Assembly (NCBI GenBank): GCA_003228955.1
Contig: QIGN01000114.1
Coordinates: 1-32,280 of the forward strand
Length of the DNA stretch: 32,280 nucleotides
Reading direction: 5' to 3'
Source of the DNA: Hyphomicrobiales bacterium
GTDB lineage: Bacteria > Pseudomonadota > Alphaproteobacteria > Rhizobiales > Methyloligellaceae
The translations under genes and the position numbers were made by a program. Positions 3-32,280 of the stretch are shown here, piece by piece (within the stretch, counting starts at the first letter, position 1; each line of letters starts with the position of its first letter). The notes under the pieces are model-generated. The model ran no database searches. It saw nothing but the letters and a program-made list of their open reading frames with translations, and had not been told where the DNA came from.

Positions 3-3000
3 GTCAATGACGGCGGCATCATGGATCTTTGGGTGCGCGAGGCCAGATTGTTCAAATATGGCTCGGGTACGGGCTCCAACTTTTCCCATATTCGCGGAGA
101 AGGCGAGAGGCTGGCCGGGGGGGGGCGGTCTTCGGGGCTGATGAGCTTCCTGAAGATCGGCGACCGGGCGGCCGGGGCCATCAAATCGGGCGGTACCACC
201 CGGCGGGCGGCCAAAATGGTGAGCGTCGATGTGGACCATCCCGACATCGAGACTTTTATCGATTGGAAGGTCACGGAAGAGCAAAAAGTCGCCGCACTGG
301 TTGCCGGGTCGAAGATGTGCCGGAAGCATTTGAGCGCGGTAATGGAGGCGTGCGGCGAGCGCTCCGGCATGACACCGGACAGGGCCGACGATGACCGGTT
401 CGAGGCGCGGCACAATGCCGCGCTGCGGCGGGCTATCCGCGCGGCGCGCGCGGCGATGGTGCCCGAGAACTATGTGCAGCGGGTGATCGCGCTGGCGCGC
501 CAAGGGTTAAACGACTTTCATTTTCCTGAGTTCGATACCGATTGGGATTCGGAAGCCTATTTCACGGTTTCGGGGCAGAATTCGAACAACTCCATTCGGC
601 TGAGCAACGGCTTCATGGCGGCGGTGGCCAATGACAAACCGTGGCATCTGACCCGGCGGACGGATGGCGCGGTCGCAAAAACGCTGCCGGCGCGGGAATT
701 GTGGGAGAAGATCGGCCATGCCGCCTGGGCCAGCGCCGACCCGGGACTGCAATTCGATACGACGATCAATGAGTGGCATACCTGCCCAAATTCAGGGCGG
801 ATCAATGCTTCGAACCCCTGTTCGGAATATATGTTCCTGGACGATACGGCGTGTAATCTGGCCTCGCTGAATCTGATGGCTTTCCGGCCCGCCGACGGCG
901 GGGCGGACGGTTCGCTGATCGATATCGCGGCATTCGAGCATGCGGTCCGGCTGTGGACGATGACGCTGGAGATTTCGGTGCTGATGGCGCAATACCCGTC
1001 ACGCCAAATTGCCCAACTGAGCTACGAATACCGCACACTGGGACTGGGTTACGCCAATTTGGGCGGGCTGCTGATGGCGGCCGGGCTCGGTTACGACAGC
1101 GATGAAGGCCGGGCCTTTTGCGGCGCGATCACAGCCTTGATGACGGGTGCCGCTTACACCACATCGGCGGAGATGGCCGAGGAACACGGCGCCTTCCCGG
1201 GCTATGCCAAGAACCGCGAGCCGATGCTGGGGGTGATGAGAAACCACCGGCGCGCGGCCCATGGCGAAACCGGCTATGAAGGTCTGTCGGTGGACCCGGT
1301 GGTGCTGGATGCAGAGATATGTCCCGACAAGTTACTCGTCGCTGCGGCCAGGCGGGCTTGGGACAAAGCGGTCGAGGACGGGGAGAAACACGGCTTCCGC
1401 AATGCCCAGGTCTCAGTGATCGCCCCGACCGGGACCATCGGGCTGGTCATGGATTGCGATACCACCGGCATCGAACCCGACTTCTCCATTGTCAAATTCA
1501 AGCAACTGGCCGGTGGCGGCTATTTCAAGATTATTAACCGGATGGTGCCGCTGGCGCTGCGGACGCTTGGTTATGGCGAGGCGGAGATCGCGGAAATATC
1601 CCGCTACGGGGGCGGCCACGGCAGCTTGGACGGAGCGCCTGGCGTCAGTGAAAAAACGTTGCGTGCCAAAGGCTTCAACGATGAGGTTCTGGCGCGCATA
1701 GAAGAAGGACTGGGCGGCTGCTTCGATATTCGTTTTGTGTTCAATAAATGGACGCTGGGGGTGGAGTTCTGCACCCAGACCCTTGGCCTGCCGGCGGACC
1801 AGCTGGATGCTTTGGATTTCGATCTGCTGGCGGCCATTGGTTTTTCGAAACAGGATATCGACGCGGCGAACGCTTATGTTTGCGGCGCCATGACATTGGA
1901 GGGCGCACCGCATCTGCGGGATGAAGATTTACCGGTATTCGACTGCGCCAACAAGTGCGGCATGACCGGCAAACGCTACTTGTCGGCGGAAAGTCACATC
2001 AGAATGATGGCGGCGGCGCAGCCGTTCATTTCCGGCGCGATCTCGAAGACCATCAACATGCCCAATGAGGCGCTGATCACCGACTGCATGGATGCCTATA
2101 TGCTGTCCTGGGGATTAGGTCTGAAGGCCAACGCCCTCTATCGGGATGGCTCAAAGCTGAGCCAGCCGCTGCAGTCGCAGTTGCTCAGCAGTGAGGATGA
2201 CGAGGAAGAGCTGGACGGCCTTGACGCGATCATCGATGCGCCGGACGGGCGGCGGGCGCAAATCGTCGCCGAAAGAGTGATCGAGCGGGTCATATACAAT
2301 AGTGCCGAACGGCATCGCTTGCCCCATCGGCGCAAAGGCTACACCCAGAAGGCGGCGGTCGGCGGACACAAAGTCTATATCCGCACCGGCGAGTATGAAG
2401 ATGGCGCCCTGGGTGAGATATTCATCGATATGCACAAAGAAGGCGCTGCCTTCCGCTCGCTGATGAATAATTTTGCCATCGCGATCTCCATCGGCCTGCA
2501 ATATGGCGTGCCCCTGGACGAGTTCGTCGATGCCTTTACTTTCACCCGGTTCGAGCCGTCGGGTATTGTCGAGGGTAACGAGGCGATCAAGATGTCGAGT
2601 TCGGTGCTCGACTATATCTTCCGGGAATTGGCGATCAGCTATCTTGACCGCAGCGACCTTGCCCATGTGGTGCCAGATGATCTGAGACCGGATAGCGTTG
2701 GCCGCAGCGAACGGGAGCAGGCCCTTCCCGATGTCGCCAGGCGGGCCATCAGTACGGGCTTTTTGCGCCGCAAGGGCCTGGTGGTGCTACCGGGCGGGGC
2801 CGACCGGGGCAATGATCGGCCGAATGAACGGGAGCGGGCAGGCGCGACGCTTGAAGCAGCGACGGCCGAAAGTGCTATTTCGATGGGCTCGGGTTCGTCA
2901 GTGCAGATGCAGGCGGTGGTGAGCGTGGGTCCTCAAGCCGTCAGCCAGCTCCGCGATGCCCGGATGCGGGGCTATGAGGGCGATGCGTGCGGCGAGTGCG

Positions 3001-3074
3001 GCAATTTTACGCTGGTTCGCAACGGCACTTGCCTGAAATGCATGACATGCGGCGGTACCAGCGGGTGTAGCTAA
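3..3074 (+). CDS. nrdJ: Vitamin B12-dependent (class II) ribonucleoside-diphosphate reductase, 5'-truncated
   Basis: Adenosylcobalamin-dependent reductase that makes deoxyribonucleotides without needing oxygen. The frame is already open at base 3 and reads [10 protein letters not shown] before the first Met at 21, so the real start lies upstream of the window; 1023 residues are visible, against about 1200 expected for this subfamily. Seen: the active-site region [11 protein letters not shown] (about 810-845), the phosphate-binding PTGTIG segment (about 1425-1445), and a cysteine-rich C-terminus with CGECG near 2990 and CLKC...CGG...C near 3030-3070, the zinc-ribbon/redox tail typical of long alphaproteobacterial NrdJ. 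Cysteines and the catalytic Glu are intact. A hairpin follows the stop. Very secure call; only the N-terminus is missing. Confidence 0.96.
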
Positions 3075-15871: not shown

Positions 15872-16576
15872 CTAGCGGCGGCCGAGCAATAGATCCTTGG
15901 CCTGGTTGATTTGCGCCGCCAGATAGTCGCTGCCGCCGTGGTCGGGGTGCATCTTCTGCATGAGCCGGCGGTAGGCGCTCTCGATCTCGCTGTTATCGGC
16001 GCCGGGCTTGAGGCCGAGGATCTCGTATGCCTCGTCGAGGGTCATGCTGCCGGACTGGGAACGCGCGGCGCCGCCGCCACGACTGGCCGAATCCCATCCG
16101 TCCGGGCCAAATTGGCGGTCAAGATAGGTCTCCAGCACAGATCGAGATTGCCGGTCGGCGGCGCATTCGGCAAACAGATCCTGCAGCTCAGGGACCGACA
16201 TGGCGTTCAGGTCACGGCCGGCATATTGACCTTCGAGAACCTCGCCGGTCATATCGCCGGTGTCGTGATCCAGCGCCATTCTGAGAAAGCGGGTCTCTAT
16301 GGTTGAACTCTGACCCGAGGACGGGCCGCGGGCGTTCTTGGAAAAGGTGCGCATAGTGCGCATACCCCGGAGCCAAGGCAGTGCCACGATGGCCATGGCA
16401 GGCAGCCAAGCCCAGCGGCCAGAAATGGCAATAAAGACGACGAACAGAACACCTAGCCCGATGGCCAGGGCGCGGATGAATTTTATCAGAGTCCTAGGTT
16501 CCGCGGAGACAACCCAGCGTCCCAGAAGAACAAATCCGGCGAGCAACGCCACCCCGAGGATAAGAGCGGGCAGCAT
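15872..16576 (-). CDS. Membrane-anchored J-domain (DnaJ-like) protein
   Basis: 234-residue co-chaperone-like protein. Seen: N-terminal membrane segment (1-22), a second hydrophobic region of one or two spans (about 33-69), a soluble middle part, and a C-terminal J domain (about 178-234, TLDEAYEILGLKPGADNSEIESAYR) with the essential HPD at 210-212. The truncated C-terminal J domain resembles Tim14/Pam18-type proteins. J domains stimulate the ATPase of an Hsp70 such as DnaK, so it likely recruits the chaperone to the inner membrane. It begins 2 nt after the VWA gene stop: a co-translated pair. The client is unknown. Confidence 0.87.
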   Translation of the reverse strand: MLPALILGVALLAGFVLLGRWVVSAEPRTLIKFIRALAIGLGVLFVVFIAISGRWAWLPAMAIVALPWLRGMRTMRTFSKNARGPSSGQSSTIETRFLRMALDHDTGDMTGEVLEGQYAGRDLNAMSVPELQDLFAECAADRQSRSVLETYLDRQFGPDGWDSASRGGGAARSQSGSMTLDEAYEILGLKPGADNSEIESAYRRLMQKMHPDHGGSDYLAAQINQAKDLLLGRR

Positions 16577-16578
16577 GA

Positions 16579-17298
16579 CTAACGACGGCCGCCAATTTGG
16601 CTGGTGAGCTGAAGCACCTTACCTCCTTTTCGGTTGCTGTAATTCTCCAGGGCGCGGCGGCCGCCGGCAGAATAGACAGCCACAGCGGCCAGCAAATCGC
16701 GCAGCTGTTTGGCGCTGCCGGTGTCAAAGCTGCAGTAGGCGCCGCCCGACAGTTTGGCCACCTGCATGAATGCGCGCCTGGATATGGGCTCGCCCCCTTC
16801 GTGGAAAATAAAGGCCGGCGTCCCCTGAAGGCCAAGTTCACCAGCCAAATGGCCGAGTTCGTCGATATCCTCCTCAACCACATCGCCGACAAAGACGACC
16901 GCGTTGACCTTGCGCTGCTTGGACTCCTTCGCCGCATGGCGCAGGACCTTGCGGATCTGGGTCTGGCCGGCGAGGCAGCGGACGCGATTCATGCGCCCGA
17001 TCAGCTCGGCGGAACTGGTAAGCCATTTGGTCGCCCGAAACTCGCCAAAACCGCGGTAGAAGCAGAGTTGAACCTCCAAACCGCCCAAAGTCTCGGTCTG
17101 GGAGAACATTTCGGCCTGAATCTGGCTCGCCATATCCCAGGTAGGCTCGCGGCTGGCGGTGGCGTCGATGGCAAACATGAGCCGGCCCGGTTGACCGGAA
17201 GCGCTGGCCGGCGGGGTCATCGCCACCTTTTGCAGAAACTTATCAACCTGGTCCTGTTGCGCCCGTTCTGTCGGTAGTTTCCTGTCGCGGCTGCCCAT
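16579..17298 (-). CDS. VWA-domain protein paired with a J-domain gene
   Basis: 239-residue soluble protein with a von Willebrand A fold and no signal peptide. Seen: LMFAIDATASREPTWD, a MIDAS motif D-x-T-x-S at 45-49, then AGQTQIRKVLRHA and VVFVGDVVEEDID supplying the further metal-ligand loops, and EGGEPISRRAFMQVAKLSGGAY. Such domains mediate metal-dependent protein-protein contacts; the specific role is unknown. It lies directly upstream of the membrane J-domain gene (2-nt gap), suggesting the two act together. The 249-bp gap upstream holds repeat copy B. Confidence 0.82.
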   Translation of the reverse strand: MGSRDRKLPTERAQQDQVDKFLQKVAMTPPASASGQPGRLMFAIDATASREPTWDMASQIQAEMFSQTETLGGLEVQLCFYRGFGEFRATKWLTSSAELIGRMNRVRCLAGQTQIRKVLRHAAKESKQRKVNAVVFVGDVVEEDIDELGHLAGELGLQGTPAFIFHEGGEPISRRAFMQVAKLSGGAYCSFDTGSAKQLRDLLAAVAVYSAGGRRALENYSNRKGGKVLQLTSQIGGRR

Positions 17299-17339
17299 AA
17301 CTCCTCAAACGTCCCTTGTATACCGGGGTTCGCCCTGCC

Positions 17340-17445
17340 CTAGGGTCTTTGCGGTTTTGTTGGACTCAAAACCAGACCCTAGAGTCTTGCTTTGCCGTGT
17401 TTGCTGGCGGAAAAGCGGTGGCCGCTTTTCCCGGAAACACTCTAG
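17340..17445. repeat. Intergenic two-hairpin palindromic repeat, copy B
   Basis: Reverse-oriented relative of the repeat at 5401-5503. CTAG occurs at both ends (17340-17343 and 17442-17445) and between the two hairpins (17379-17382). Hairpin 1 has GTGTTT/AAACAC and AAAAGCGG/CCGCTTTT; hairpin 2 (17340-17382) has CTAGGGTCT/AGACCCTAG and GGTTTTG/CAAAACC. Relative to copy A, the inner stem pair C:G has become G:C, a compensatory change. It lies about 100 nt beyond the mipZ stop. Confidence 0.85.
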
Positions 17446-17547
17446 CAGACCTGTTACTTGCTCCATTATGTGCTGTCTTGGTGGCAAATTGCCAAGGCTT
17501 CGTGGTTCAAACTCACCACAGCTGCGTGTTCTAGAGGATAATAGGGG

Positions 17548-18459
17548 CTAGCGGCCGGCGGCAACCAGGAGTTCAGCGCCCGGGGGGGCGGTGAGGCCAG
17601 GGGCTGGGGCGGCTGGGGCCTCGTCAGGGGGGGGCTGGCGGGTTTCAGGCTCATCGGGGACCTCGGTGAAGCCGATGGCCGCGAGGAGCGTGCGGACCTC
17701 CTGCCGGGCGGCAACGTGAGAAAGGGTCAAAGGCACATCGGCGCCATTCTCACGTAAATCCAACAAAGTCAGCCCTTTCAAGAATAATTCGCGGAAAATC
17801 ACCCGCTCACCAAATCCGGGAGCCGAGCGAAAGCCGATGCGGCCAGCCAGGGCCTTGAGGACCTGGCCGACATTGCGCTGATTGCGCGATGCCAGAGACG
17901 CGATACGGTTGCGGATGACGATCCAGTCAATGGGGCGGCCATTATGGACCGCGCGGGCCTGTTTCTGCTGCCATACCATTTCGCTGTAACGGCTGGGGCG
18001 GACCACTTGCAGCGTATCGGGATCGACGACCGCCAGCAGATCGAGGTCAACGAAGCTGTCATTCATCGGGGTGATCAATGTGTCCGCGTAGGTGTGGCCA
18101 AGGCGCGAGAGGGTGCTGTCAGCGCCGGGCGTATCGATAACGATATATTCGCAGGCGGAGAGGTCATGCAGGGCGGCGGCGAGGTCGCGGCGTTCTTCAT
18201 CGATAGCATCGGTGCGGCTTTCCAGCTCGCTGGCATGGACGGCGCGCAACTCTGGGTGCTCGAGCGCCAACTGGCGACGTTGGGCATAGTCGCGCCGGTT
18301 TTCCAGATAACGGGACAAGGTGCCCTGTCTGGCATCGAGGTCGATGGCGCCGACCGCATGGCCATGGCGCAACAGACTGACGATCAAGTGCATGGCAGTC
18401 GTGGATTTGCCCGTGCCGCCCTTCTGGTTGCCAATGACGATGATGTAGGGGCCACTCAT
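17548..18459 (-). CDS. mipZ: Division-plane positioning ATPase MipZ
   Basis: ParA/MinD-type ATPase that in Caulobacter forms a gradient from the chromosome origin and inhibits FtsZ away from midcell. 303 residues. Seen: deviant Walker A GNQKGGTGKST (10-20), DLDARQGTLSRYLENR, IDTPGADSTLSRLGHTYAD, and the family hallmark ITPMNDSFVDLDLL, then VIFRELFLKGLTLLDL. The last 45 or so residues are a Pro/Ala-rich tail without recognisable fold. Start: MSGPYIIV at 18459 fits the family; in-frame ATGs at 18468 and farther upstream to 18525 are possible, and no start has a strong ribosome-binding site. It follows the DUF3179 operon by about 190 nt and may have its own promoter. Confidence 0.9.
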   Translation of the reverse strand: MSGPYIIVIGNQKGGTGKSTTAMHLIVSLLRHGHAVGAIDLDARQGTLSRYLENRRDYAQRRQLALEHPELRAVHASELESRTDAIDEERRDLAAALHDLSACEYIVIDTPGADSTLSRLGHTYADTLITPMNDSFVDLDLLAVVDPDTLQVVRPSRYSEMVWQQKQARAVHNGRPIDWIVIRNRIASLASRNQRNVGQVLKALAGRIGFRSAPGFGERVIFRELFLKGLTLLDLRENGADVPLTLSHVAARQEVRTLLAAIGFTEVPDEPETRQPPPDEAPAAPAPGLTAPPGAELLVAAGR

Positions 18460-18648
18460 CGGGCGCATCCACATTGTAATTGTGCGCGGCGTCGCGGTTC
18501 CCTTATGGCGCGGGACGGGCGGCAACGCAACCCGGTCCGGACGGCGGCGAAAATCGCCAGAAACCGCGCGCCTCGGTGGCGAAAAAACGACCCCGGTTCA
18601 AGCTGTTGGCCGACTCACTTCGGTAGTCGAATCAGGCGACTCGGGCGG

Positions 18649-19680
18649 CTATTGGTAGAGTGTCCCTTCGGGGCGGAAAGCGTTGAAGGAGAAAGCGAAT
18701 GTGACGTCATGCACAGCGTCGATCAGTTCACCATCGACGAGGCGCTGAACCGTTACATTACCAATATCCTGGCTCTGGGAGATCACCCGGCTACTCATGG
18801 CGGCGTTCTGACCGGGCTCCCAAGTAATTACCAAATCACCGCTTTCAATTCGGCCTTCGCGGCGCAGAAGATTGAGTGACCAGGCTTCGTCGCCGACCGC
18901 CACGACATAAGCAAGAGGTGCTATTTCGTCCGACAGCTCGCCAAAAAACAAAGGCGGCCGCGTGGAACTGTCATAGTCCGCATAGGGGTTTTCGAGATAC
19001 GCCGGGGTGAAACCACCCAAGCTTTCCGACCCGGCGTTAATGGTGCCGTCAGGGAAGCGCTCCTTAAAGCTGGCGTAACCCTCTGTTCGGACGGGAATAA
19101 TCTCCAGCAGGGTGCCGGTCATCTCGCCGACGATGGCCTCGCCAATGAATTGCTGCCACCAGGTTTCCGTCTGCCGATCCCACATGATGAGGTCGGAAAA
19201 GCGCAGGAAACCGCTGACACCAAAGTCGAGCACCCGGTCGCCGACACGGCGATCAAAGACCACGGCAGAGTTGCAGAGCGGACAGAAGGTGACCGAGATG
19301 GGTACGCCGCCGAGTTCATCATTGACGATCTCGTGGCGGATCAGCAATCCGAGCGGATAGGCGCGGGCCTCGCCGTTCAGGCTGAGGCTGACGACCGGTG
19401 CGGTGTCGTTAAATACCTCGTCGGCCTCGGCGAAGCTCATTTCTATGGGATCATCGATGGCCCGAATGCAGTCGCGCTGCGGGCAGCCGGCGAATATCTC
19501 GCCATAATCGACGCTAAATTTGGAGAAATCGGTGGTCCAGATACTGCTATCGGTCGCCGGATCGAAGCTGCGTTGGGCCTGGGCCGCGCCGGCCGCAAAA
19601 AGAGAGGCAAGACCCGCGACCATGGCGATTTTTGCAAATTGCGCCAAGGAATGGCGGGCCGGTTGGGTCGAAAGGGTCAT
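18649..19680 (-). CDS. DUF3179 protein, paralogue 1 (last of four)
   Basis: 343-residue exported protein of unknown function. Seen: an N-terminal signal peptide ending about AAGAAQAQ (residues 30-36), then the family core: RAYP, RHEIVND, FCPLCNSAVVFDRR with Cys133 and Cys136, WWQQFIGEAIVGEMTGT, and AWSL...RIE..DLVITWEPG. Unlike the other three copies it has an additional pair Cys66 and Cys71 (GCPQRDC) where they read G-P-x-R-D-x-I. The conserved CPLC pair suggests metal binding or thiol chemistry in the periplasm, but no activity is established. The start is 38 nt after the stop of paralogue 2, so it is the 3' gene of the operon. Confidence 0.9.
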   Translation of the reverse strand: MTLSTQPARHSLAQFAKIAMVAGLASLFAAGAAQAQRSFDPATDSSIWTTDFSKFSVDYGEIFAGCPQRDCIRAIDDPIEMSFAEADEVFNDTAPVVSLSLNGEARAYPLGLLIRHEIVNDELGGVPISVTFCPLCNSAVVFDRRVGDRVLDFGVSGFLRFSDLIMWDRQTETWWQQFIGEAIVGEMTGTLLEIIPVRTEGYASFKERFPDGTINAGSESLGGFTPAYLENPYADYDSSTRPPLFFGELSDEIAPLAYVVAVGDEAWSLNLLRREGRIESGDLVITWEPGQNAAMSSRVISQSQDIGNVTVQRLVDGELIDAVHDVTFAFSFNAFRPEGTLYQ

Positions 19681-19718
19681 GGCGGTCCTCTGAAAGTGTG
19701 TGGAAATGCCGGAGCAGG

Positions 19719-20726
19719 CTAGTAGTTGAGCTTGCCGTCGGGCACGAAGGCGCTGAAAGCAAATGCGAAGGACACGTCATAGGGCACGTCCTCAAGACTA
19801 TCGCCGGTGCGGCGCTGGACGACGACGTTGCCGACATCGCGGCCGGAGGAGATCTTGCCGGTATCGTGGATGGAGTTCTGGCCGGGCTCCCAGGTGATGA
19901 TCAGATCGTTCTGCTCGATCCGCCGCTGGTCGCGAACAAGGGCCAACGACCAAGCTTGCTCGCCGACGACGACGACGCGGGCGATGGGCTCGATATCGTC
20001 GGGCAGGTTGAAGCCGAACCGGCTGCGCGGCAGACTGGCGCTGTCCATGCGGACATAGGGCGTGTTGCCGTAAGGCCTGGAACGCTCATCATCGGGTATG
20101 AGCAATTTGCCGTTCGGCGCCCGCTGGCGAAATTTCTGCAGAGACTCCAAACGCGCCGGCAAGACTTTCAAGCGCGTGCCCGTCGCCGCGCCCATGATCG
20201 CCTCGCCAAGGAATTGCTGCCACCAACTCTCCGTCGTCTTGTCATACATCACCATGTTGAAGAAACGAAGGCGCCCGGTGTTGCCAAATTCGATCACCTC
20301 GCCATCAACGCGGCGGTCGAAAACAACGCCGGAGTTGCACAGAGGGCAATAGCTGATCAAGACGGGAACGCCGCCGACAACATCGTTGACGATCTCATTC
20401 CATAACAAAATACGCAGGGGGTAGGCGCGGAAGTCGCCGTTGATGCCGATGCTGACGACAGGTTCGAGGATGCCGATGCCGGTCGCGTCAGCCGCCGGAA
20501 TGAATTTGGGATCGTCGATGGGCGGGATCTGGTCGCGCAGCGGGCCGTCGGTGACGATCTCGTCATATTCGATCGATCGCTGGGTGAAGTCGGTGAGGGG
20601 AAATTCGCCGGCCCAGTCCTGATGGCCGTTGGCACTGGCGGTTAACGGGGCCAGCGAGATGATGGCGGCCAGGGATGCGGCGCTGGCGAGCCGACGGAGT
20701 GAGGTTCGCACCATTTCTGGCCTCAT
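19719..20726 (-). CDS. DUF3179 protein, paralogue 2
   Basis: 335-residue exported DUF3179 protein with an N-terminal signal sequence (cleavage likely after LTASA, about residue 32). Core motifs present: RAYP, SYCPLCNSGVVFDRR (Cys127, Cys130), ESWWQQFLGEAIMG, DLIITWEPGQNS. It is the most divergent of the four: WNEIVND has Asn110 where the others have His, and MGAATGTRLKV replaces GE(F/L/M)TGT. Its ATG overlaps the TGA of paralogue 3 (tetranucleotide ATGA), showing translational coupling. An in-frame ATG four codons later is an alternative start. Function unknown. Confidence 0.9.
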   Translation of the reverse strand: MRPEMVRTSLRRLASAASLAAIISLAPLTASANGHQDWAGEFPLTDFTQRSIEYDEIVTDGPLRDQIPPIDDPKFIPAADATGIGILEPVVSIGINGDFRAYPLRILLWNEIVNDVVGGVPVLISYCPLCNSGVVFDRRVDGEVIEFGNTGRLRFFNMVMYDKTTESWWQQFLGEAIMGAATGTRLKVLPARLESLQKFRQRAPNGKLLIPDDERSRPYGNTPYVRMDSASLPRSRFGFNLPDDIEPIARVVVVGEQAWSLALVRDQRRIEQNDLIITWEPGQNSIHDTGKISSGRDVGNVVVQRRTGDSLEDVPYDVSFAFAFSAFVPDGKLNY

Positions 20727-21793
20727 TGATTGATCGTGGCGCCCGGGTTAAACGCGTTGAAGGCGAAGGCGAAGGTGAAGTCATAAACCGCGTCGACGAG
20801 CTGGCCCTCCTGGCGGCGCTGAACGACGACGTTGCCGATGTCGCGGCCGTTGGCAATTTGACGGGCGTCAAGAGCCGAATTCTGTCCCGGCTCCCAGGTG
20901 ATCACAAGATCGCCCTTTTCTATGCGCCGCTCCGTGCGCAGCAAATCGAGGGACCAGGCTTCGTCGCCGACGGCGACGACATAGGCTAAAGGCGCGATGC
21001 CGTCGGGGCTGTCGCCGCGGAACAGGAAAGGGCGCTTGGCGGTGTCGTAACCCTTGTAAGGATTGCGGCCATAACCGCGGCGAAAGCTAAAGGGGCGTTT
21101 TTGGACCAGCCCCTCGGGAAAGCGCTCCCGGTACCGGGCAAAGGACTCGACTCGCGCCGGCAAACTCTCAAGCCAGGTGCCGGTAAATTCGCCGACAATG
21201 CCCTCGCCAAGGAATTGCTGCCACCAGCTCTCGGTTTGGCGGTCGTACATCACCAGGCCCGATTTTCGAAGCTTGCCGGTGGTGCCAAATTCAAGTACCC
21301 GGCCGTCGACACGGCGGTCGAAAACAACCGCCGAGCTGCATAACGGGCAATAGGTCACGGCGATGGGCACGCCGGCGATCTCATCATTGACGATCTCGTG
21401 CCACATCAAAATGGCCAGGGGATAGGCGCGGGCCTCGCCATTTATCTGGATCGAGACGACCGGCTCGGTGGCGGCGATATCGTCAGCGGCCTCGGCGATG
21501 GTGGAGAAACTCGGATTTTCGATGGAAGGGATGCCATCCCTTGGCGGCCCGCCAGACATGATTTCAGCGAAATCAACACTGCTCTTGGAGAAGTCGGTCT
21601 TACTGAAGGCACGGGTCCAGCCGGCGGGAACGGGCTGGGATGGGGTCGCGCGATCCTCCAAGGCCGCAACGTTTTCACCGCCACTGGCAACCGGGGTGCC
21701 GGAGCGGCTCTGGAACAGGAGGAAGCCAATCGCCAACGCAGCGATACCAACTACCAGGCCAAGGCGCATCGGGTAGGAAGATAAGGAAGCCAT
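20723..21793 (-). CDS. DUF3179 protein, paralogue 3
   Basis: 356-residue DUF3179 protein. Its N-terminus (MRLGLVVGIAALAIGFLLF, about 9-27) looks more like an uncleaved membrane anchor than a cleavable signal, followed by a Gly/Ala/Pro linker, so this copy may stay tethered to the inner membrane facing the periplasm while the others are released. Core motifs: RAYP, WHEIVND, TYCPLCSSAVVFDRR (Cys149, Cys152), ESWWQQFLGEGIVGEFTGT, DLVITWEPGQNS. It starts 24 nt after paralogue 4 stops and overlaps the start of paralogue 2. Function unknown. Confidence 0.9.
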   Translation of the reverse strand: MASLSSYPMRLGLVVGIAALAIGFLLFQSRSGTPVASGGENVAALEDRATPSQPVPAGWTRAFSKTDFSKSSVDFAEIMSGGPPRDGIPSIENPSFSTIAEAADDIAATEPVVSIQINGEARAYPLAILMWHEIVNDEIAGVPIAVTYCPLCSSAVVFDRRVDGRVLEFGTTGKLRKSGLVMYDRQTESWWQQFLGEGIVGEFTGTWLESLPARVESFARYRERFPEGLVQKRPFSFRRGYGRNPYKGYDTAKRPFLFRGDSPDGIAPLAYVVAVGDEAWSLDLLRTERRIEKGDLVITWEPGQNSALDARQIANGRDIGNVVVQRRQEGQLVDAVYDFTFAFAFNAFNPGATINQ

Positions 21794-21817
21794 GGCTAGT
21801 GTCCCGCGGGCAGGGCG

Positions 21818-22822
21818 CTATTGGTTGATGGTCGCGCCCGGGTTGAAGGCGTTGAAGTTGAAGGCGAAAGTGAGGTCGTGGACAACATCCACCAGACCAT
21901 CGCCGGTCCGGCGCTGGACGACCACATTGCCGAGATCCTGGCCCTGGGGAATGGCGCGCGCGTCGAGCGCGGACGTCATGCCAGGCTCCCAAGTGATAAT
22001 GAGATCGTCTTTTTCGATGCGGCCCTCACGTCTTAGGAGATCAAGGCTCCAGGCGTCATCCTCGCCCGCGACGGCGACAACATAGGCGAGCGGTGCAATG
22101 CCTTCGGGTAACTCGCCGCGGAACAGGAAGGGCTGGGCCGAGGTGTCGTAACCATCATAAGGGTTGCGGCCATATTCGCGCACAACGTCCTGCGGGGTAA
22201 GCAGAACCTGGCCGGCGGGGAAACGCTCCTTAAAGCTGGCAAATGACTCGACCCGAATCGGCAGCATCTTGAGGAAGGTCCCCGTAAGCTCGCCGACGAT
22301 GCCTTCGCCAACAAATTGCTGCCACCAGGTCTCGGTCTGGCGGTCATACATCACCAGGTCGGAGAAGCGGAGGCCGCCGGAGGTGCCAAATTCAAGCACC
22401 TGGCCGCCGGCACGGCGGTCAAAGGCGACGGCGGAATTGCACAGGGGACAGAAGGTAACGGAAACCGGCATGCCGGCGATCTCGTCATTGACGATCTCAT
22501 GCCAGATCATGATCTGCAGCGGATAGGCGCGGGCGACGCCCTCAATCTCAAGCGTAATCACAGGCTCAACATCGGCGAGGAATGACTCACCATCGGCGAT
22601 GGTGCCAAAATCCGGCGCGTCGATAGACGGAATGCGATCGCGTGGAATGACAAATAAGATCTCGTCAAACGCGACGCTGGCCTTCTCGAAATCCGTGTTG
22701 GGCCATTGCAGCTTCCAGCTGTTGGGCACCTGGGACTGGGCCGGTGCGGCCATAACCAACGACATGGCGCCAACCGCGAGAAGAACCGCCATCGCTGATC
22801 CAGTACGCGCTATGAAACTCAT
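21818..22822 (-). CDS. DUF3179 protein, paralogue 4 (first of the operon)
   Basis: 334-residue exported DUF3179 protein, promoter-proximal in the run of four. Signal peptide ends about MAAPAQSQ (residues 24-31). Core motifs: RAYP, WHEIVNDEIAGMPV, FCPLCNSAVAFDRR (Cys125, Cys128), ETWWQQFVGEGIVGELTGT, DLIITWEPGM. Its C-terminus (FNAFNPGATINQ) is nearly identical to that of paralogue 3, suggesting a recent duplication between these two. The 215-bp gap upstream contains the pspF terminator; any operon promoter must lie in the roughly 50 bases below that hairpin or the operon reads through from pspF. Confidence 0.9.
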   Translation of the reverse strand: MSFIARTGSAMAVLLAVGAMSLVMAAPAQSQVPNSWKLQWPNTDFEKASVAFDEILFVIPRDRIPSIDAPDFGTIADGESFLADVEPVITLEIEGVARAYPLQIMIWHEIVNDEIAGMPVSVTFCPLCNSAVAFDRRAGGQVLEFGTSGGLRFSDLVMYDRQTETWWQQFVGEGIVGELTGTFLKMLPIRVESFASFKERFPAGQVLLTPQDVVREYGRNPYDGYDTSAQPFLFRGELPEGIAPLAYVVAVAGEDDAWSLDLLRREGRIEKDDLIITWEPGMTSALDARAIPQGQDLGNVVVQRRTGDGLVDVVHDLTFAFNFNAFNPGATINQ

Positions 22823-22871
22823 GGGCAGATTCCGATCTATCGGCTTGTTGAAATCAGGCGAGCGGTGCCGT

Positions 22872-22905
22872 CAAAAAATAGTGGCGGTGCCGCTGGCACC
22901 GCCAC
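22872..22905 (-). terminator. Rho-independent terminator between pspF and the DUF3179 operon
   Basis: Perfect 11-bp stem GTGGCGGTGCC / GGCACCGCCAC with a 3-nt loop (22881-22905), followed on the minus strand by TATTTTTTGA, a proper U-tract. It is about 133 nt after the pspF stop and 50 nt before the first DUF3179 start, so it could end pspF transcription or act as an attenuator for the operon below it. Confidence 0.85.
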
Positions 22906-23037
22906 AAGTTCGCTCGAAGCGTTGGTCGTTGAGGAGAGGCATAACACTCATGGACTCATATTAGCCAAGGCAGGACGGGATTAAACTCAAACCGCGTCAC
23001 GAATCCGTGACGGGAAAAGCTGGAACCCGGGGCGGAA

Positions 23038-24144
23038 TTATCGTGTTTTTTCATGCTCTTGAGGTGTTCTCTTGATCTCCGGTTCAGGCAATTTCTTGGC
23101 CAACTGCTCGCCCAGCAAGCCGTGCTTGCGCAGGGCGTTGCGGAGTTGGTGGTAACTCAGGCCCACATGGCTGGCGGTGGCGCGCTGGTTGTAGCGGTTC
23201 ACAGCCATTGCCTGGGCCAGCAGGCGGCGCTCGAAATCAGCCAGGACGGCACGAATATCAAGAGGCTCGCTGGCCTGGGGCAGTGCCTCGCCGGCTGGCT
23301 CGGGGACAGATGGTTGCGTGGCGGGGCCGGCCGCGGGCCGCGGCTGTTTCGAAGGGCGGTAGGGCGAGCCGAAGGGATCGAAGACGATCTCGCTCACGGG
23401 CTCGTCCATCTTGGCGGACCGGTAAACCGCCCGTTCGGCGACATTCTTGAGTTCACGGACATTTCCGGGCCATTGATGGGCAAGCATCGCGTCGACCGCC
23501 GAAGGCGCGAAACCGGGAAAATCCGGCCAATCGAGTTCGCGTGCCATGGTGCGGCCAAAGTGGCTCGCCAACAAGGGGATATCGTCCAAGCGCGCCCGCA
23601 GAGGCGGGATTGTGATGACGTCGAAACTGAGGCGGTCGAGCAGGTCATGGCGGAAGTCGCCCTGCGCCGCCGACGCCGGCAGGTCGATGTTGGTGGCGCC
23701 AATGACGCGGACGTCCACTGACAGGGAACGGTCGCCGCCGAGACGCTCAAACTCGCCATACTCAACAGCGCGCAAGATCTTCTCCTGCACCGCATGGCCG
23801 GCATTGGCGATTTCGTCGAGGAAGAGAGTGCCGGTGTCGGCCAACTCAAAGCGGCCAGGCCGGCGGCGCACGGCGCCGGTGAAGGCGCCGGCCTCATGGC
23901 CAAATAACTCGGATTCAAGCAAACTTTCAGCCAGGGCGGCGCAATTGAGTTTGATGAACGGGCGTTCCCAGCGCCGGGACAGGAAATGCAAACGGGCGGC
24001 GACGAGCTCCTTGCCGGTGCCGCGCTCACCGACCACCAGCACCGGCCGGGCTAGGGGCGCTACCCGCGACACATGCTCCAGCATGTCGGAAAATGCCGGA
24101 GACTCGCCGATTAGGGATGGTAAATCCGCCGGTGACGCCGCCAT
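23038..24144 (-). CDS. pspF: PspF-type sigma54-dependent activator of the phage-shock operon
   Basis: Enhancer-binding AAA+ activator of RNA polymerase-sigma54, lacking a receiver domain; in E. coli it is held inactive by PspA. 368 residues. Seen: Walker A GERGTGKE (39-46), the sigma54-contacting GAFTGA loop (86-91), Walker B LFLDEI (106-112), sensor-region GATNIDL, a Pro/Ala-rich linker of about 60 residues, and a Fis-type helix-turn-helix (about 305-345, NQRATASHVGLSYHQLRNAL). It is divergent from the psp genes across a 194-bp region bearing a sigma54 promoter, the E. coli-like arrangement. Start ATG at 24144 fits the family. Confidence 0.93.
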   Translation of the reverse strand: MAASPADLPSLIGESPAFSDMLEHVSRVAPLARPVLVVGERGTGKELVAARLHFLSRRWERPFIKLNCAALAESLLESELFGHEAGAFTGAVRRRPGRFELADTGTLFLDEIANAGHAVQEKILRAVEYGEFERLGGDRSLSVDVRVIGATNIDLPASAAQGDFRHDLLDRLSFDVITIPPLRARLDDIPLLASHFGRTMARELDWPDFPGFAPSAVDAMLAHQWPGNVRELKNVAERAVYRSAKMDEPVSEIVFDPFGSPYRPSKQPRPAAGPATQPSVPEPAGEALPQASEPLDIRAVLADFERRLLAQAMAVNRYNQRATASHVGLSYHQLRNALRKHGLLGEQLAKKLPEPEIKRTPQEHEKTR

Positions 24145-24245
24145 GGTGTGTTATCCATTTTTCCTATTATTTATTCATATGTACTAATTGTTCGTGTTTT
24201 TTGCAACCCTCACTTTCAACCGCGCCTCCCCTTTTTGCGCCCGTG

Positions 24246-24256
24246 TCAAAGACTTA
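24246..24256 (+). promoter_or_regulatory. Possible IHF site upstream of the psp promoter
   Basis: TCAA-N4-TTA matches the core of the IHF consensus (with one mismatch in the 5' part) about 16 nt upstream of the sigma54 promoter. IHF bends this region in E. coli psp. The match is short and could be chance. Confidence 0.25.
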
Positions 24257-24271
24257 ACGGCCGCAGGGCTG

Positions 24272-24288
24272 TTGGCACGCTCCGTGCT
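24272..24288 (+). promoter_or_regulatory. Sigma54 (-24/-12) promoter of the psp operon
   Basis: TTGGCACGCTCCGTGCT fits the sigma54 consensus with the invariant GG-N10-GC spacing; the only departure in the -12 element is GTGCT for TTGCW. Transcription would begin about 24299 and read the small membrane-protein ORF and pspABC. Placement opposite pspF is the expected arrangement. Confidence 0.85.
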
Positions 24289-24338
24289 GTGGTTAGGGTG
24301 ACGCAACCGGCGTCGATATGAAAAACAAGGGGATGTCG

Positions 24339-24497
24339 ATGCACATGGATGACGCGGATTTCGGACCAGACCGCAGCCGGCCTCAGGCTACGTGGCAGCG
24401 GCTGCTCAATCAGCTGGGCAAATATGTTCGCAGCCGTACAACCGACCACTGGATCATGTTTATTGCCGGGGTCGTGCTTGGCGCCTTGCTGTCCTAA
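24339..24497 (+). CDS. Small membrane protein, first gene of the psp operon
   Basis: Small ORF of 52 residues (59 from an alternative ATG at 24318). Start 24339 is preferred because AAGGGG lies 6 nt upstream (24327-24332). Sequence: an acidic N-terminus, a basic amphipathic stretch (TWQRLLNQLGKYVRSRTTDHW) broken here as TWQRLLNQLGKY then VRSRTTDHW, and a C-terminal hydrophobic tail IMFIAGVVLGALLS, so a tail-anchored inner-membrane protein is likely. It lies between the sigma54 promoter and pspA, 26 nt before the pspA start, in the same direction, so it should be co-induced with pspA. It does not resemble PspB, PspC or PspD that I can recall. Role unknown. Confidence 0.65.
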   Translation: MHMDDADFGPDRSRPQATWQRLLNQLGKYVRSRTTDHWIMFIAGVVLGALLS

Positions 24498-24523
24498 CCG
24501 CGCAGCCTTTGGGAGACGAGTAA

Positions 24524-25210
24524 ATGGGTATTTTTTCGCGATTGAGCGACATTATTAACTCCAACATCAATGCGTTGCTGGACCGTGCCGAGGAGCCAGA
24601 AAAAATGGTCCGACTTATCATTCAGGAGATGGAAGATACCTTGGTCGAGGTACGCAGCAGCGCGGCGCGAACCATCGCCGAGAAGAAGGATCTGGGACGC
24701 ACCCTGGAACGTCTTGGCGCGGCCCAGGCCGAATGGGAGAAGAAGGCGGAGCTGGCAATTAGCCGGGGCCGGGAAGATCTGGCTAAAGCCGCACTGGTGG
24801 AAAAGGCTAAACTTGGCGAGTCGGCACGGGCCTTGGGAGAGGAGCTGAGCCATCTGGATCATGCCCTGGAGCGGAGCGATGTGGATGTTTCGCGGCTTGA
24901 GAGCAAATTGAATGAAACAAAAGCCAAACAGAAGGCCCTGCTGGCGCGCCACGATACAGCCAATGCGCGCCTGAAAGTACGCCGCAAGCTGAATGACGGG
25001 CGGGTCGAGGATGCCTTCATGCGCTTCGATCTCGTGGAGAAGCGGTTGACACGTGTCGAAGGCGAGATCGAGAGTTATGATCTGGGTCAGAAACAAACTC
25101 TTGCCGAGGAGATAGATTCTCTGGCGGCGGAAAGTGCGATCGAAGAAGAACTGGCGGCGATCAAAGCGCGCATGAGTGACCAGGGTCAGGGCGGTAGCAA
25201 GAAGGGCTAG
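24524..25210 (+). CDS. pspA: Phage shock protein A
   Basis: Peripheral membrane ESCRT-III-like coiled-coil protein that binds stressed inner membrane and, in E. coli, inhibits PspF. 228 residues, normal for PspA. Seen: N-terminal amphipathic helix MGIFSRLSDIINSNINALLD, then the conserved AEEPEKMVRLIIQEMEDTL, followed by continuous charged heptad-rich coiled coil to near the C-terminus, ending in a short Gly/Lys-rich tail. The start has GGGAGACGAG 5-10 nt upstream. The stop is 2 nt before pspB. Expected to be controlled by PspF from the sigma54 promoter upstream. Confidence 0.96.
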   Translation: MGIFSRLSDIINSNINALLDRAEEPEKMVRLIIQEMEDTLVEVRSSAARTIAEKKDLGRTLERLGAAQAEWEKKAELAISRGREDLAKAALVEKAKLGESARALGEELSHLDHALERSDVDVSRLESKLNETKAKQKALLARHDTANARLKVRRKLNDGRVEDAFMRFDLVEKRLTRVEGEIESYDLGQKQTLAEEIDSLAAESAIEEELAAIKARMSDQGQGGSKKG

Positions 25211-31356: not shown

Positions 31357-32280
31357 ATGATCGAGACGCGCGGGCCCGGCGACGGGGCGCGTAATCTGCT
31401 GGTCAATTGCGCCGGCCTGAAACCAGGGGAATCGCTGCTGCTCATCGTCGAGGATCCGAGCCTTGGCTGGTACGTGCTGCTCATCGTCGAGGATCCGAGC
31501 CTTGGCTGGTACGACGCCGATGTGGCCGAGGCCGTCGCCGAAGAAGCGCGAAATATGGGTCTGGCGCCGACCATGCTTGAGGTGGGCAAGCCCGCGAATA
31601 ACCCCGATGCACGGGTGGTGGAAGCGGTCGCGGCGCATGACTGCACGATATTCTTCGCGCGCATTGGCGACCAGGACCGGTTTGGCGAAACCGTGCCGGG
31701 CCGGAGAAGCGTGATGTGTTATGTGCGCGATACCGGGATGCTGTCCGGCGCCTTTGGCAGCACTGACCATCAGGCGTTCGTGGCGCTGAAAGGTGCCGTC
31801 AACGATGTCTTGCTGGGCGCCGAGCGGATCGAGATAAGCTGCCCGCGCGGCACGCGCTATGCCGGCGCGGTCTCGGAGGCCGTGCGCCAACAGCAGACGG
31901 ATGTATCGGTGGCGCGCTTCCCACTGGGTGTGCCCTTGCCCATGGATGCCTCGTTATTTTCGGGCCGGGTCGCGGTGGCGGACTATCTTACACCGACGGG
32001 AGCGCGGGTGTATGAGCCTGCCTATCTGGCTCTGGACACAACAATATTCGCGGAGGTGGAGCGCGGCAGGATCGTCGGGTTCAGCGGCGACACCGGTGAC
32101 GTCGGCCGCGTGCGGGATCATTACAAAAGAATATCCGACCAGTTCGGTATCGATGGGGATGCGGTGCATTAATGGCATGCCGGCATCCATCCGGGCTGCG
32201 CCTACACAAAAAAAGCCGCCGACGATCCGGACCGCTGGTCGAACACGATTTTCTGTAACCCGCGCTTTGTCCATTTTCAT
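31357..32280 (+). pseudogene. Aminopeptidase-T/NicX-like metalloenzyme gene with in-frame stop, 3' end outside window
   Basis: Starts at the ATG at 31357 and reads 271 residues to an in-frame TAA (32170-32172), but coding-like sequence continues in the same frame for 36 codons to the window edge (WHAGIHPGCAYTKKAADDPD, then DRWSNTIFCNPRFVHFH), strongly suggesting the original protein ran on. The GAA-to-TAA change is one base away. The N-terminal part also holds a perfect 13-residue duplication (27-39 and 40-52). I place it tentatively near the leucyl aminopeptidase-T/2,5-dihydroxypyridine dioxygenase (NicX) superfamily from the pattern of C-terminal His-rich motifs; not certain. It is the last gene of the catabolic-looking operon, 22 nt after the XRE-cupin gene. 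Confidence 0.65.
31436..31513 (+). repeat. Perfect 39-bp direct tandem duplication inside a gene
   Basis: Copy 1 is 31436-31474 and copy 2 is 31475-31513, identical by eye. It is in frame and repeats 13 residues (LLIVEDPSLGWY plus one), so reading continues downstream undisturbed. Looks like a replication-slippage or assembly event; only one copy is expected in the family. Confidence 0.95.

Follow-up and report, generated by a model that had tools for sequence, protein, structure and literature searches.

A conserved array of four diverged DUF3179 genes on an alphaproteobacterial contig and a predicted Rieske-like fold for the family

Introduction

Why would one alphaproteobacterial contig carry four full-length genes of the DUF3179 family side by side? 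The question is raised by positions 18649-22822 of the stretch of DNA analyzed here (the window), which is contig C57, positions 1-32280, of a metagenome-assembled genome (MAG); all coordinates are those of the window, and the gene copies are numbered in the order of transcription. Proteins of the DUF3179 family are known from many Pseudomonadota and also from Deinococcus and haloarchaea; no function for them was found in the open-access literature. We found that the array is conserved and its genes differentiated, an arrangement that is rare but not unique, and that the conserved N-terminal domain of the family is predicted to have a Rieske fold. In our judgment the chances are about even that the array encodes a set of specialized exported redox proteins of the cysteine or selenocysteine (Sec) type, made from one transcript and expanded from a single gene at the mipZ locus.

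Results

The array is composed of four genes, all of which start with ATG and run head to tail:

21818..22822, minus strand: DUF3179 copy 1, class A; 334 amino acids (aa); 267.9 bits; N terminus signal-peptide-like by eye
20723..21793, minus strand: DUF3179 copy 2, class A; 356 aa; 270.5 bits; inside the class A/A' clade (support, 100/98)
19719..20726, minus strand: DUF3179 copy 3, class B; 335 aa; 237 bits; His of HEIVND replaced by Asn
18649..19680, minus strand: DUF3179 copy 4, class A'; 343 aa; 227.7 bits; extra CPQRDC cysteine pair

In transcription order the genes are separated by 24, −4, and 38 nucleotides (nt). The open reading frame (ORF) calls and the scores against the Pfam profile of DUF3179 (PF11376; cut-off, 27 bits), which the four copies cover nearly completely at 227.7 to 270.5 bits, agree with the initial annotation of four full-length genes on the minus strand. 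The same profile was matched by 57/57 members of a family set; this set and two others of 123 and 22 sequences, which overlap with it, are the basis of the motif counts. The motifs CPLC, WWQQF, and ITWEPG and the EIVND block are present in 4/4 copies, from which all four had been taken to be probably functional. The motifs are indeed there, but copy 3 reads WNEIVND and has lost the His that precedes Glu in 56/57, 122/123, and 21/22 sequences, being the sole exception in each of the overlapping sets; HEIxN is kept in 3/4 window copies, compared with 4/4 for CPLC.

The copies were also said to differ in length, N terminus, and cysteines, and this is the case. The proteins range from 334 to 356 aa. 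By eye, copies 1, 3, and 4 have signal-peptide-like starts, which suggests export, and copy 2 begins differently, with a hydrophobic stretch and no obvious cleavage site. The CPQRDC pair is exclusive to copy 4 among the 57 sequences; its nearest relative, L064_12052, does not have it, and no second CPxx motif was seen in L120_10561. The first Cys of CPLC is encoded as Cys in all four ORFs, whose reading frames are open and carry no in-frame TGA. No curated NCBIfam name applies to any of the four copies or to their relatives, copy 1 had no match among PDB sequences at E values up to 1, and no match for the array was found in a phage collection, so that a phage origin is unsupported. The pairwise identity among the four copies is 46 to 63%, and they are therefore old paralogues and not assembly duplicates.

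The classes were defined in a careful tree of 64 chosen rows, with which a quick tree of 123 rows was in agreement. Class B (31 rows) is split from the rest with a support of 100/100, and classes A and A' lie within a 19-row clade (100/98). The copies have positional partners in arrays on two distant alphaproteobacterial contigs, L064 and L120. Copy 1 pairs with the first L064 copy, L064_7927 (99/95), copy 3 pairs with the third, L064_9953 (99/89), and copy 4 pairs with the last, L064_12052 (100/97), and then with the last L120 copy, L120_10561 (100/98). Copy 2 and the second L064 copy could be placed only to a poorly separated part of the A clade. The gene order is A-A-B-A' in the window and L120, A-A-B-B-A' in L064, and A'-B-B in family f153, of which three genomes (G520, G609, and G686) each hold an A copy on a separate contig. 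Given the same order and the positional partners in L064 and L120, the array is not a recent local duplication, and since it is old and its order is kept in distant relatives, its copies probably do different jobs.

Sequence divergence points the same way. We defined a class-diagnostic site, among 39 sequences, as one where every class shows a residue in at least 80% of its members and at least one class is distinguished by it. There are ten such sites, and five of them (123, 147, 148, 156, and 159) flank the invariant or nearly invariant residues C125, G146, G149, M158, and D160. The ratio of nonsynonymous to synonymous changes (dN/dS, Nei-Gojobori) is about 0.15 to 0.26 for the window copies against those of L064 or L120, with dS near or over saturation and the partner of copy 2 an orthologue by presumption; between L068 and L073 it is 0.06 to 0.10 for all three copies. 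The idea that the genes are specialized variants is thus supported by positional orthologues in distant arrays, a dN well below dS, and the ten diagnostic residues.

The same data bear on two other interpretations. If the array were a dosage amplification, in which the copies act alike and only their number matters, the range of one to five copies at the locus would be understandable. However, such an amplification predicts near-identical copies, and the identities given above count against it, as do the positional orthologues by class and the class-specific residues; we consider it highly improbable. It could also be proposed that the four products are subunits of one envelope hetero-oligomer, with the class-specific residues as contact or pairing residues. 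The genes overlap or are tightly spaced, in all the complete short-form arrays (window, L064, L120, L046, L047, L048/L089, L066, L068, and L073) at least one A or A' gene occurs together with at least one B gene, and the three f153 genomes keep their A copy elsewhere beside the A'-B-B array. However, class B stands alone in the fetched stretch of, for example, L071, L075, L082, L085, L104, and L122, and the five diagnostic residues that flank invariant ones fit specificity at least as well as pairing. A hetero-oligomer is therefore rather unlikely in our view.

Tandem copies were surveyed in four genome samples, which overlap and each of which takes in the MAG of the window. DUF3179 is carried by 26/61 genomes of the relatives sample, 80/297 of the order sample, 120/385 of the class sample, and 48/398 of the phylum sample, and most carriers have one to three scattered copies. 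In the relatives, order, and phylum samples the MAG of the window alone has two separate neighboring copies, when G010, G053, and G904, in which the neighbors are pieces of one gene, are set aside. Among the matches listed for the class sample, at least 6 of the 120 carriers have adjacent copies: the MAG of the window, G520, G609, and G686 of f153, and G339 and G470 of f77, whose tandem pair belongs to a distant long-form clade. A scan of the collection with a class B profile, from which the best 80 of at least 545 loci were taken, gave nine loci with at least two consecutive copies, full or at a contig edge: five copies in L064, four in L120, three in L065, L066, L068, L073, and L089 (the same contig as G686:C2), and two in L067 and L091. 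L076, with two partial ORFs, was left uncounted. A single copy together with mipZ and/or the gene for a VWA-like protein was found in the fetched stretch of 24 of these 80 loci. Because picking the top 80 with a class B query favors arrays, these counts are not frequencies. The simplest history is one gene at the mipZ/VWA locus that was later expanded in some lineages. The assumption that this layout had no described counterpart needs to be divided: no description of one, and no role for such arrays, was found in the open-access literature, but the survey of adjacent copies and their neighbors finds that tandem arrays recur in other genomes, if rarely.

Two further loci deserve mention. In L049 and L050 (f77), long-form DUF3179 genes form an independent tandem pair, with CxxS for CxxC in one of the two, and in L188 (G647:C52) the C-terminal half of a DUF3179 gene contains an in-frame TAG.

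To what kind of protein the copies belong can be approached from the predicted structure. AlphaFold2, with 57 rows, gave a mean predicted local distance difference test (pLDDT) score of 94.2 for copy 1 and of 93.5 for residues 84 to 207 alone. The best Foldseek matches of the N-terminal domain were Rieske proteins, with NirD (3c0d) at an E value of 0.026 and a probability of 1.00. With VIA-align, in which a Z score under 8 may reflect a common arrangement, the model of this domain reached a best Z of 9.6, and 33 of the best 50 rows had a Z of 8 or more. These rows are Rieske ferredoxins, oxygenases, NirD, arsenite-oxidase small subunits, and one unnamed complex III chain; NirD and the arsenite-oxidase small subunits are taken by us to be Rieske proteins as well. 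Over 91 to 98 residues, the root-mean-square deviation of the domain (residues 94 to 194) from the Rieske structures is 2.4 to 3.5 in the first 28 rows. The whole protein gave a best Z of 5.7, with 45/47 rows of these same kinds and two CheA entries. No thioredoxin-fold entry was recognized among the Foldseek and VIA-align matches listed.

The Rieske ligand motif CxH...CxxH is found in 0/57, 0/123, and 0/22 sequences. The Rieske family PF00355 is not among the 14 families matched by the 57 members at E values up to 10, a search in which the HMMER filters drop most weak matches, and hhalign of DUF3179 against Rieske gave a probability of 0.8%, with a shallow DUF3179 profile (Neff of about 2). 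Since the cluster ligands are absent and the profiles show no relationship, DUF3179 is Rieske-like by predicted fold and not a Rieske [2Fe-2S] protein. We also considered whether H108-x16-C125xxC128 could be a degenerate Rieske site of the form CxH-x(15-17)-CxxH. The spacing fits, but the aligned ranges oppose it. Residues 4 to 98 of 1vck align on residues 12 to 111 of the domain (95 to 194 of copy 1), with 91 residues aligned and at most 9 model and 4 chain residues unaligned. The cluster ligands of 1vck (C46, H48, C65, and H68) would then map to places within residues 133 to 148 and 152 to 168 of copy 1, and CPLC is at 125 to 128. The hhalign register differs and puts CPLC on box I (probability, 0.8%). 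The degenerate site is unsupported rather than disproved.

The C-terminal half has, by eye, a similar strand-strand-helix-strand-strand order. A profile of the N-terminal unit scored 27.7 bits on the C-terminal half of the Deinococcus member, 16.1 bits on that of a long form, and above 5.4 bits in 8/22 members, with shuffled sequences at 5.4 bits or less (226 reported of 440); on the four window copies it scored 0.0 bits or below. An internal duplication in DUF3179 is only suggested by these results.

The chemistry of the conserved residues was compared in the 22 diverse members, which are 15 alphaproteobacterial sequences (the four copies included), one from Thiothrix, one from Deinococcus, and five from haloarchaea. 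C125, E109, N112, D160, T163, W167, and Q169 are invariant (22/22), H108 is found in 21/22, and C128 is found in 20/22, being replaced by Thr in one haloarchaeal member and by Ser in one f77 member. In tables of two reviews, DUF3179 is listed among selenoprotein families with the Sec motif UxxC/T (PMC9312934, PMC13188914). We have equated the U of this motif with the first Cys of CPLC. On that listing, a first Cys that is replaceable by Sec and a second that is dispensable would be what is expected of a reactive thiol or selenol and not of a metal-binding pair.

It has been suggested for these genes that the CPLC pair binds a metal or haem, and in that case the array would be a set for handling Cu, Zn, Fe, or haem. 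The CxxC has a conserved His 17 residues ahead of it, and the copy on a Deinococcus plasmid adjoins a chromate efflux gene, with a metal-sensitive regulator and a heavy-metal P-type ATPase about 4 to 5 kb off. The suggestion is weakened by the replacement of the second Cys in 2/22 members, where the first is kept in all, and by the listing of Sec with UxxC/T. The annotated neighborhoods of 6/28 plasmid matches (a seventh carries no annotation) also bear on it: three haloarchaeal plasmid copies have instead genes for a redoxin, a peroxiredoxin, TauE/SafE, or a flavin/dihydrolipoyl oxidoreductase within a few kilobases. The Thiothrix plasmid copy adjoins a GDCCVxC (seleno)protein gene, with a thioredoxin-domain gene near, and the Halocatena and Deinococcus neighborhoods fit a redox context poorly. 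Metal or haem binding at CPLC is thus unlikely, and we prefer a reactive first Cys. A direct sighting of Sec was looked for in L187 (G787:C73), a fragment with an in-frame TGA at the place of Cys125. The family match ends at the TGA and the sequence downstream does not continue the family, so that it is apparently a broken gene and gives no evidence for Sec.

The array lies between pspF and mipZ, with the following features at its borders:

23038..24144, minus strand: pspF, upstream boundary of the locus; TIGR02974, 488.6 bits against a cut-off of 443.55
22881..22905, minus strand: terminator-like hairpin between pspF and the array; 11 pairs, 9 of them G-C, followed by TATTTTTT
17548..18525, minus strand: mipZ, downstream boundary, conserved beside arrays and single copies; PF09140, 350.8 bits
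16579..17298, minus strand: VWA-like protein, conserved downstream neighbor; PF13519, 19.4 bits, under the cut-off of 27

It could be argued that the array belongs to the Psp envelope-stress response and is driven by PspF, since pspF is directly upstream of it in the window and L120 and, in L064, is separated from it by a single gene on the upstream side. However, the hairpin separates pspF from the array, and no sigma-54-like site within two mismatches is present in the 215-nt gap at 22823-23037. The sigma-54-like sites of the window number 17 against 16.05 expected, which is chance level, and pspF is missing from the stretches fetched for the three f153 arrays. Sigma-54 control of the array is thus unsupported, and we regard membership in the Psp response as very unlikely. 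One sigma-54-like site with a single mismatch, at 24273-24288, lies between pspF and pspA, which are divergent, at a place where a promoter for psp would be expected, within the same chance-level count. From 17300 to 24600, terminator-like sites are not above chance (5, against 7.5 expected in shuffles), and the hairpin at 22881-22905 has by far the longest stem of the five. From the hairpin and the lack of a near-consensus sigma-54 site, the array is probably transcribed separately from psp, and we infer that it forms one separate transcription unit.

The downstream order of mipZ and the genes for the VWA-like protein, a DnaJ-domain protein, a nucleotidyl transferase, a UDP-sugar dehydrogenase, and a phosphomannomutase is identical in the window and f153, and L120 shares VWA-DnaJ-galU-ugd-pgm with the window. 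The VWA-like and DnaJ-domain genes (15872-17298) accompany mipZ and DUF3179 in several Rhodospirillales-like loci. A molybdopterin oxidoreductase cluster is near DUF3179 in 15 loci, in 13 of which it is downstream on the same strand within 1.2 kb of the gene or array (L046:5677-7782 is an example); in these 13 it precedes mipZ wherever the stretch includes mipZ. In L064 the apparent start of the same gene follows the last copy, by eye, and in the window and L120 there is no molybdopterin oxidoreductase gene at that place. This enzyme was rejected as a partner, having no export signal visible by eye and being absent from the window locus.

The window itself is probably foreign to its MAG, an assembly of 194 contigs whose contamination is estimated at 3.01%. 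A second ClpA of the MAG, encoded on C9, is 96.8% identical to that of the congener G007; the window ClpA is 70% identical to it and 79 to 80% identical to those of the three f153 genomes. For the window MipZ, seven congeners offer nothing close (34 bits at best), whereas the three f153 genomes give 340 to 357 bits. The array copies group with f153, L064, and L120, and the DUF3179 copy on C87 of the MAG groups with its genus. On the ClpA duplicate, the MipZ result, and the affinities of the array, the contig is probably mis-binned; a 32-kb transfer is the alternative. A point against mis-binning is that one of the five congeners searched, G001, also has two ClpA genes, which gives a second ClpA a precedent in the genus. 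These G001 genes, on C112 and C85, are 73% and 71% identical to that of the window. In tetranucleotide composition, the window correlates with ten further MAG contigs at a mean of 0.919 (0.929 to 0.950 among those ten), with one stretch of f153 at 0.925, and with L120 at 0.923; the origin of the contig is not settled by composition.

Elsewhere on the contig, the ORF at 31357-32172 contains a 39-bp perfect tandem duplication at 31436-31513, which repeats 13 residues in frame and is either real or an assembly artefact, and a B12-dependent ribonucleotide reductase gene at 21-3074 is cut by the contig start, matching from model position 215 of 1222.

Discussion

We suggest that the array would be an old, expanded form of the single DUF3179 gene that stands beside mipZ-VWA-DnaJ-galU-ugd-pgm in some Rhodospirillales-like alphaproteobacteria. 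That classes A, B, and A' appear to have been kept together and to have diverged next to the conserved motifs would be explained if the array encodes specialized exported proteins made from one transcript. Each product would have an N-terminal domain with the predicted Rieske fold and without the [2Fe-2S] ligands. The first Cys of CPLC would be a thiol or selenol-type redox catalyst outside the cell membrane, assisted by the His-Glu of HEIVND, and the second Cys would be a dispensable resolving residue. The different classes may act on different envelope substrates or partners. Of all this, the genes, their classes, the kept order, and the motif conservation are observed and the fold is a prediction, whereas export, co-transcription, redox chemistry, and a division of labor are inferred.

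Several points weigh against this interpretation. No assay or function was found for any DUF3179 member in the open-access literature, so the redox function is drawn from conservation and context. The genes of the locus (psp, mipZ, and the sugar-nucleotide genes) include no evident thiol-redox partner. Copy 3, which lacks the conserved His, may have an altered function, and the proximity of His108 to Cys125 in space is presumed. Foldseek gave no match at an E value below 0.001 for either the whole protein or the N-terminal domain. Sigma-70-like promoters from 17300 to 24600 number 0 against 2.0 expected, and because none was found, co-transcription rests on spacing, overlap, and the hairpin. 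Finally, the copies could differ in dosage or targeting instead of chemistry.

A bolder version, which we put forward as a tentative and not very probable idea, is that DUF3179 kept a Rieske fold, lost the iron-sulfur cluster, and turned into a Cys/Sec redox enzyme, and that in these bacteria A, B, and A', encoded together in the array, form a dedicated periplasmic redox relay or complex whose members differ in the would-be cluster loops. A Rieske fold without a cluster would, if true, be a non-canonical use of that fold. Whatever their chemistry, diverged natural copies with class-specific residues offer a ready test of the role of the family and of its specificity residues. The contig also holds a lesson for annotation: a contig that is probably mis-binned can lend a species genes that are absent from it. 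As far as we searched, the open-access literature describes neither the class arrangement nor the Rieske-like fold of DUF3179.

Compared with the DUF3179 family at large, including its "(seleno)protein" members, the window copies have CPLC, EIVN, and WWQQ in common. However, the family elsewhere mostly occurs as one to three scattered copies, whereas the window has four that are adjacent and differentiated by class, with Cys and not Sec. The arrays closest to it are those of L064, L120, and f153. L064 and L120 have the same classes and pspF, L064 differing by its five genes. The f153 arrays share the classes and the mipZ-VWA-DnaJ-galU-ugd-pgm genes with the window but number three genes (A'-B-B), after which comes a molybdopterin oxidoreductase gene, whereas the window has four genes and no such gene there.

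Among better-known proteins, the Rieske proteins (ferredoxins, NirD, and AioB) resemble the predicted fold of DUF3179 residues 94 to 194. Unlike them, DUF3179 has no CxH...CxxH ligands, and its CPLC lies off the cluster loops, as judged from the aligned ranges. The UxxC selenoprotein redox families are the other likeness, given that Sec is listed within the UxxC/T of DUF3179 relatives (PMC9312934, PMC13188914), but the structure matches listed for DUF3179 include none of the thioredoxin type.

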